Source: an uncultured Bacteroidales bacterium (lineage in GTDB: Bacteria > Bacteroidota > Bacteroidia > Bacteroidales > F082). From it: a DNA stretch of 64,000 nt. The position numbers were made by a program, and so were the translations under genes. Positions 19,738 through 19,980 of this stretch are shown one piece after another. Location: positions 124,001 through 188,000 of the forward strand of contig CAMHJX010000002.1 of NCBI GenBank assembly GCA_946185535.1, in the 5' to 3' direction. Positions within the stretch are counted from its first letter, which is position 1. Each line of letters begins with the position of its first letter. The notes below the pieces were generated by a model. That model was not told where the DNA came from, searched no databases, and saw only the letters and a program-made list of their open reading frames with translations.

Positions 19738-19947
19738 GCGTTTAGCCAAGAGCCTCGGAAACTTATTGGAAATAAACACTCAGAAATAATATCTGGCAGT
19801 CTTTCATAATGGAAGACTTTACCAAGTAGTTTAAGGCAATGCTTGTACCGATAGGTGCAGGCAACTTGTTTACTTGGTAGAGGTTTCCATCCGAGGCCGC
19901 CTCTCAGCTAAACGCAATAAGTGGGCTTGCACCTAACTTTTTGCGTT
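19738..19947 (+). ncRNA. Candidate structured RNA in the defence islet, no known family recognised
   Basis: The 290-base gap between hepT and the methyltransferase folds extensively. Helices: P1 GCGTTTAGC (19738-19746) with GCTAAACGC (19907-19915), perfect; P2 GCCTCGG (19752-19758) with CCGAGGC (19891-19897), extended by AAAC with GTTT (19883-19886); P3 AGTCTTTCA (19798-19806) with TGGAAGACT (19810-19818), loop TAA; P4 TACCAAGTA (19820-19828) with TACTTGGTA (19871-19879), perfect; P5 GCTTGTACC (19841-19849) with GGTGCAGGC (19854-19862), loop GATA. Two alternatives compete: AACGCAATAAGT (19911-19922) with ACTTTTTGCGTT (19936-19947) instead of P1, and GGTGCAGGC with GCTTGCACC (19925-19933) instead of P5. 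Strand is assumed from the flanking genes. It could be a leader-type switch, an independent RNA, or a folded DNA site. Confidence 0.55.
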
Positions 19948-19951
19948 GGCG

Positions 19952-19980
19952 GATTGATAGCATTGCGAAAACTATCAATC
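19952..19980 (+). promoter_or_regulatory. Hairpin abutting the methyltransferase start codon
   Basis: GATTGATAG (19952-19960) pairs perfectly with CTATCAATC (19972-19980), loop of 11 bases containing TTGCG. The ATG follows after one base, so the helix would sit in the ribosome footprint. No Shine-Dalgarno is present. The loop could also contact CGCAA at 19913-19917. Confidence 0.6.

Follow-up and report, generated by a model that had tools for sequence, protein, structure and literature searches.

Restriction-modification cassettes need the right order of expression in a new cell, and their known control is mainly by proteins. Structured leaders have been described in other settings: EAR, put and the UpxY/LoaP/RfaH-type leaders belong to surface or secondary-metabolite operons. 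Folded DNA can also be functional in exchangeable gene arrays, and the attC sites of integrons use a fold on the bottom strand. Here we analyze an element in a 64,000-nucleotide (nt) stretch of an uncultured Bacteroidales genome (GenBank assembly GCA_946185535.1, contig CAMHJX010000002.1, positions 124,001 to 188,000; hereafter the window). The element lies at 19738-19980, together with a conserved box on its 5' side (the A-box), directly before the gene of an EcoRI-type DNA methyltransferase. It is one copy of an undescribed family of probable leader RNAs of the Bacteroidales, and its structure contains conserved pairings that compete with each other.

A conserved fold with competing pairings

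Folded as RNA, positions 19738-19980 reach -91.7 kcal/mol, compared with -58.8 (standard deviation 4.4) in 200 dinucleotide shuffles (z -7.49, 0/200 equal). The reverse strand folds more weakly (z -5.31), still with none of 200 shuffles as stable. No closed open reading frame (ORF) of at least 40 amino acids occurs between the stop of the upstream HEPN gene and the methyltransferase start. A sequence-only reading had described a folded non-coding segment with several helices and two strands having a second partner; the helices, their coordinates and both second partners were all recovered. Its limits were slightly short, since the conserved 5' box at 19703-19737 also belongs to the element and can pair with inner segments and with 19948-19967. 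The leader measures about 280 nt from A-box to ATG, and a single base separates its last helix, P7, from the ATG (19982).

The same reading recognized no known family, in agreement with our Rfam comparison. An Rfam 15 cmscan of the window found nothing at the element above gathering scores, a relaxed search of 19600-20100 (E up to 10) returned chance-level matches only (best inside the element, E = 1.1), and nine loci with relatives yielded tRNAs only. A literature search did not find the element, although the supplementary tables of PMC8040213 may hold an earlier prediction of it; the keyword passages of PMC2864571 and of PMC8040213 contain no methyltransferase or restriction term.

Two types of leader could be distinguished. 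Type 1 (A-box ...GCATTAGCTATTATTTCGCG) includes the window copy, and type 2 (...GCGTTTGCTATTTATTCG and variants) diverges somewhat from it in the middle part; the A-box, P1, P2, P4, P5, PK and P6 are common to both. From 124 type-1 hits, 63 copies below 93% similarity, window included, were aligned. These copies were picked by A-box and P7 patterns, which in part accounts for the constancy of both; no other helix served as a criterion of selection. In this alignment, fold A had 86.0% of its cells paired, compared with 36-42% when slid, and both-side changes in 34 of 41 pairs, and none of 500 shuffles attained any of the measures. An alternative set (Y:Y', PK and P6) had 81.4% of cells paired, compared with 38-57% when slid, with both-side changes in 13 of 24 pairs and three measures reached by 0/500 shuffles. 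P6 by itself showed both-side changes in 4 of 6 pairs and 70.6% pairing, and P4 was badly aligned. RNAalifold alone returned 28 pairs, 21 of them with double changes.

We then compared pairing within sequences to pairing across sequences by permutation. For type 1 (46 of the 63 copies after an 80% cut), none of 2000 permutations was as good for P1, P2, P4, P5, PK, P6, Y:Y' or X:X', while 21/2000 were for P7; four of five control pairs were null. For type 2 (35 leaders, 49 before similar ones were removed; 33-35 usable per test), the result was 0/2000 for P1 to P5, PK, P6 and Y:Y', and four controls were null. P5 and PK have one strand in common and each of them covaries, so selection ties the 3' strand of P5 to two partners. 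The switch-like alternative pairings proposed from the single sequence are thus supported by covariation in both types, and in copies before EcoRI-type methyltransferases the pairings persist through compensatory changes.

Three hub strands each have at least two mutually exclusive conserved partners. The A-box can pair with inner segments X'/Y' or with Z; the 3' strand of P1 with its 5' strand or, as the 5' arm of P6, with about 19936-19947; and the 3' strand of P5 with its 5' strand or with the PK strand inside a terminator-like hairpin. The A-box and Z are imperfect inverted repeats, and Z ends 12-18 nt before the start of the downstream gene in 37 of 56 leaders.

With pairs drawn on the coding strand of the window, fold A contains 225 G-U pairs and 54 A-C mismatches. 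When only Watson-Crick pairs of the window are considered in the other 62 rows, the counts are 184 vs 54, or 116 vs 15 without P4. The excess of G-U pairs over A-C mismatches indicates that the coding strand is the folding strand.

We take TAnnTTTG to be the Bacteroidota -7 box, and give the same presumed meaning to the TAATTTTG motif in the window. Within 150 nt upstream of the 138 A-boxes with enough upstream sequence, TAnnTTTG was present at 42 of 47 A-boxes without a same-strand ORF end within 200 nt (mostly 50-90 nt away), at 9 of 45 with an ORF end at most 60 nt upstream and at 28 of 46 at intermediate distance. The shuffled rate for the first group was 5.6%, which is somewhat too low because it was taken from 110 nt and not 150. 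The position of this box suggests that the A-box most likely lies inside the 5' untranslated region, and its presence in 42 of 47 cases that the element is very probably a transcribed 5' leader. The A-box itself is disfavored as a promoter, as a separate -7 box sits further upstream. In the window copy, the stretch from P6 to the ATG contains no TAnnTTTG.

In examples examined by eye, a hairpin followed by a T run often lies 3' of P1; the 5' arm of this hairpin overlaps the 3' strand of P1, and the PK strand is part of its 3' arm. Terminator-like hairpins of -5 kcal/mol or lower were found in 12/63 and 14/32 leaders, compared with about 2% of mononucleotide shuffles; a second scan found 39/63 and 13/32, compared with 31/189 and 11/96 dinucleotide shuffles. 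The two scans differ in rules and shuffles and concur on the enrichment. A conserved leader peptide was considered and set aside: judged by eye, the short ORFs that occur in some type-2 leaders lack conservation.

Table 1 Features of the leader and its islet in the window (positions count from the first base of the window)
Feature	Position	Strand	Evidence
TAATTTTG, likely operon -7 box	19014-19021	+	located in window
MNT-type nucleotidyltransferase, first gene of the islet	19040-19342	+	PF01909, 2.8e-18
HepT-like HEPN protein	19326-19691	+	PF01934, 3.6e-26
A-box left half, AACATATTATAAACC	19703-19717	+	recurrence of the A-box pattern in genus genomes
A-box X (19721-19728) and Y (19729-19737)	19721-19737	+	hub strand; partners inner X'/Y' or Z
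P1 5' strand (partner 19907-19915)	19738-19746	+	outer six pairs: 97.8% of cells paired, both-side changes 5/6
P2 5' strand (partner 19891-19897)	19752-19758	+	90.0% paired, both-side changes in 7/7 pairs
Y', complementary to Y	19783-19791	+	0/2000 permutations in both types; both-side changes in 2/9 pairs, mostly one-sided
P3 hairpin, variable	19799-19817	+	computed fold
P4 5' strand (partner 19871-19879)	19820-19828	+	both-side changes 9/9, only 54.2% of cells paired; within-sequence 0/2000
X', complementary to X	19835-19842	+	type 1, 0/2000; type 2 unsupported, 818/2000
P5 hairpin (19841-19849 with 19854-19862), 3' strand common to PK	19841-19862	+	94.3% paired, both-side changes 8/9
P1 3' strand, overlapping P6 5' arm	19907-19915	+	covariation
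Terminator-like hairpin in P6 (19919-19939) and T run (19938-19942)	19919-19942	+	-3.0 kcal/mol, a weak hairpin in this copy; many relatives have a stronger one
PK strand, alternative partner of 19854-19862 (9 pairs)	19925-19933	+	both-side changes in 5/6 inner pairs; 0/2000 in both types
Z, complementary to A-box, shortly before start codon	19948-19967	+	pairing with the 5' box
P7 hairpin (19952-19960 with 19972-19980)	19952-19980	+	99.5% of cells paired, little variation; 5' strand part of Z
EcoRI-type adenine DNA methyltransferase	19982-21094	+	PF13651, 9.5e-131; PADLOC MTase_II
DUF262-HNH restriction nuclease	21199-22323	+	PF03235, PF01844; PADLOC REase_II, full length, 437 bits
Hairpin, right end of the exchanged unit	22330-22359	.	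terminator-like on - strand; T run after it on + strand

Copies, cargo and exchange

To analyze the distribution of the element, we searched 99 genomes of the same genus. A DNA search gave a partial match or better in 55 of them, and the A-box pattern AACATATTATAAAnnAnnGCRTTnGCTnTT, with at most 2 mismatches, occurs at 120 sites in 52; the reversed pattern, used as a control, had no site in the same 99 genomes. Among fetched loci we inspected 131 distinct A-box sites, matched more loosely (at most 5 substitutions), and defined the cargo as the longest ORF starting within 450 nt of the A-box. Eight sites had no such ORF. In 95 of the other 123 the ORF starts at least 100 nt downstream (at 190-300 nt in 78), and these were counted as RNA-length leaders by the room for the RNA and not by the fold of each copy. 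The remaining 28 ORFs start closer than 100 nt and mostly encode DUF1016 proteins (19/28).

DNA methyltransferase or restriction clusters are the cargo of 64 of the 95 RNA-length leaders: 33 EcoRI-type, 8 type III/N6-N4, 8 N6_Mtase, 5 C5 (two clusters), 4 Eco57I, 3 further N6-N4, 2 ResIII and 1 HSDR_N, with type-1 counts leaning towards the EcoRI-type gene because the first search was seeded with an EcoRI-type leader. Other cargo comprises 4 glycosyltransferase 2, 3 acyltransferase, 2 GtrA, 2 DUF2334, 1 DarT, 1 GDSL lipase, 1 DUF1016 and 1 HAD gene, 6 genes in two clusters whose representative has no Pfam match, and 10 other or unannotated genes. Labels rest on one Pfam-scanned representative for each of 35 clusters. 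One copy (L250) lies in the record of a named strain, Marseilla massiliensis An824.

Leader and cargo are exchanged together at hotspots. Among the matches listed, the upstream flanks of many copies are alike across genomes as far as roughly the A-box, beyond which leaders and cargo differ; loci L272 and L273 have a common variant, AACATATTGTAAAACA, followed by type 2 and type 1, respectively. The thyA-MFS intergenic site (18944-22421 in the window) is a variable hotspot in related genomes. In 13 of 22 examined loci, from 13 genomes, thyA is joined directly to the MFS gene, which is not a frequency because the loci were picked from genomes with the MFS flank (82/99). Five of the 22 hold other or similar islets, L304, L307 and L313 show one side only, and L297 carries the MNT-HEPN pair without RNA and without restriction genes. 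A second locus of the window, 57976-58219 near tRNA genes, is unoccupied here; in L274 it contains a leader and an N6_Mtase gene. Insertion of the RNA unit into a pre-existing A-box is not required: in L297 the HEPN gene runs to a terminator-like hairpin, and no A-box was seen. At the right boundary, five pairs compared by eye had nothing in common except the position at a terminator-like hairpin, and no clear proof of insertion from the right flank emerged when L281 was compared with L311 and L314.

Beyond the genus, we used a covariance model (R1, 219 positions), which is mostly a sequence profile because it has only 13 base pairs; matches weaker than E 1e-10 were not used. At E <= 0.001 it matched 55 of 393 order-level genomes, and at E <= 1e-10 23 of 393 in 10 family groups, five of the 23 in the genus of the window. 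Among the 296 genomes of a phylum sample, a strong match was confined to the genome of the window itself, and one other genome matched marginally (5e-5). An exact-type pattern search found 7 of the same 393 order genomes. Of 278 methyltransferase relatives, the 80 nearest were kept: 48 carry an A-box upstream (at 236-330 nt), 30 lack one, and in 2 cases the record is too short; 0 of 15 informative relatives from non-Bacteroidota records have one. A phage, plasmid or viral-contig origin was rejected, as exact patterns had no match in viral contigs and blastn none in phages and plasmids.

In the window, the islet contains, in order, an MNT nucleotidyltransferase, a HepT-like HEPN protein, the RNA, the EcoRI-type methyltransferase and the DUF262-HNH nuclease. 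By the PADLOC labels MTase_II and REase_II, which stand side by side, this cargo is a type II restriction-modification pair of the ordinary kind. The gap between these two genes (21095-21190) contains two palindromic repeats, with two partial copies elsewhere in the genome. The same genome has two more A-box leaders on contig C3 (L045, L046), before a DarT-domain protein and an N6_Mtase/Eco57I-type methyltransferase. L038, L041, L044 and other arrays consist of tandem DUF1016 (YhcG-like), RhuM or Schlafen AlbA_2 genes with a bare A-box 0-31 nt before each ATG, and the last unit of several such arrays is an RNA leader followed by a restriction or glycan gene. In L290 and L281, A-boxes are followed by neither the RNA nor an assigned gene and are possibly remnants or empty positions.

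Possible roles of the leader

The data show a conserved structure with alternative pairings, the strand and position of the element, its cargo and its exchange, and regulation of the downstream cargo appears to be the best reading of these findings. We lean towards a model in which the element, transcribed as the 5' leader of its restriction-modification cassette, acts in cis as an RNA switch and represents an undescribed family. In the OFF form, P5 would be closed and the terminator-like P6 formed; in addition, either the A-box would pair with Z or P7 would close at the start codon. In the putative ON form, P1 and PK would form and break P6, with the A-box held by X'/Y'. Such switching, in answer to whatever signal, would gate transcription and/or translation of the cargo. 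A bolder proposal, which we regard as rather doubtful, is that one common Bacteroidales RNA switch for mobile immunity senses a single infection- or arrival-linked cell state and activates whichever cassette follows it. If so, stalled translation or altered transcription would be example signals, and any cassette swapped in, whether restriction-modification of any type, DarT or surface-glycan modification, would fall under the same control.

Several observations weigh against a cis-acting switch. No ligand or common physiological signal is evident. The A-boxes without RNA before DUF1016, RhuM and AlbA_2 genes are not explained by it. Two of the five measures of the alternative set were reached by 5 and 27 of 500 shuffles, P7 hardly varies, changes in Y:Y' are mostly one-sided on the alignment, and X:X' is unsupported in type 2. 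For one control, the pairing of Y' to the 3' strand of P1, the result was likewise 0/2000; it was interpreted post hoc as a third partner in one clade, and part of the signal may therefore come from relatedness. In addition, the weak terminator-like hairpin of the window was missed by the second scan and by a simple scan, which flags P5 instead.

One alternative is a separate trans-acting non-coding RNA of ~220 nt, ending at P6 and acting elsewhere, for example on the A-box-bearing messenger RNAs of DUF1016-type genes. The enrichment of terminator-like hairpins at its 3' end and the A-boxes complementary to inner segments before other genes of the same arrays would fit such an RNA, but Z and P7 lie beyond P6, with Z close before the cargo start, and the cargo would need read-through, given the lack of a TAnnTTTG between P6 and ATG in the window. 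We consider this unlikely. About as unlikely is a processive antitermination element, similar to put, EAR or a leader recruiting a NusG paralogue, for read-through of exchanged operons. The frequent intergenic position (45/138 A-boxes at most 60 nt from an upstream same-strand ORF end) agrees with this, as does the occurrence before restriction and surface-glycan genes; known antitermination elements often precede such genes. However, the pairings at the start codon and the hairpin close by have the appearance of local control, no partner protein was identified (no search was aimed at a NusG-like one), and no Rfam match to known elements was found.

The sequence-only reading had also considered a folded DNA site or an RNA part of the methyltransferase-nuclease system. 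A DNA-level mobility or recombination site, either an attC-like fold or a small transposon with the A-box and Z as terminal inverted repeats, would account for their imperfect inverted repeats, for the upstream identity that stops at or near the A-box in several strain pairs before different units, and for the presence or absence of leader and cargo at hotspots. The excess of G-U pairs on the coding strand disfavors it, as do the covarying internal helices, the constrained appearance of promoter and start-codon distances and the few copies per genome; the swaps could be explained by homologous exchange within shared leaders. We therefore regard a DNA site as improbable. A guide or scaffold RNA of an RNA-protein defense complex with the cargo enzyme is very improbable, even though X' and Y' are two guide-like segments complementary to the A-box. 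The cargo is unrelated between copies, ranging from several methyltransferase families to DarT, glycosyltransferases, acyltransferases and GtrA, and the RNA is absent in 30 of 78 informative nearest methyltransferase relatives, so a role as RNA component of this restriction system was rejected.

With a cis-acting leader as the preferred reading, a widespread RNA element that precedes modification and surface genes of unrelated kinds would open the regulation of exchangeable immunity, in bacteria that abound in the gut, to direct tests. The A-box search also provides a handle for defense-gene discovery, having found methyltransferases of several families and DarT.

Comparison with described systems

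A type II system with an EcoRI-family methyltransferase is the cargo here, and the RNA is not confined to such systems. Group I and II introns, IS110 bridge RNAs and TnpB/IscB guide RNAs resemble the element in having inner segments complementary to a flanking 5' box. Rfam gave no match to a group I or II intron core in the window or in 19600-20100, and no recombinase or RNA-guided nuclease was present among the four window proteins or the 35 cargo representatives scanned. Like integron attC, the element is a long imperfect hairpin beside exchangeable genes, but its coding strand is the one that folds, with tolerance of G-U pairs, which disfavors a bottom-strand fold, and it stands before and not after the gene.

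The EAR (epsC, RF01735), put and UpxY/LoaP/RfaH-type elements are likewise structured RNAs or leaders in exchangeable operons. The element differs from them in its own terminator-like hairpin and start-codon pairing and in the absence of an Rfam match, including to RF01735 at the window or at the loci of relatives. With attenuators and riboswitches it shares alternative pairings and the probable position as a 5' leader, with a terminator-like hairpin and a predicted start-codon pairing before a gene; it differs from them in having no Rfam family, no known ligand and cargo without common metabolism, and in being exchanged together with that cargo.
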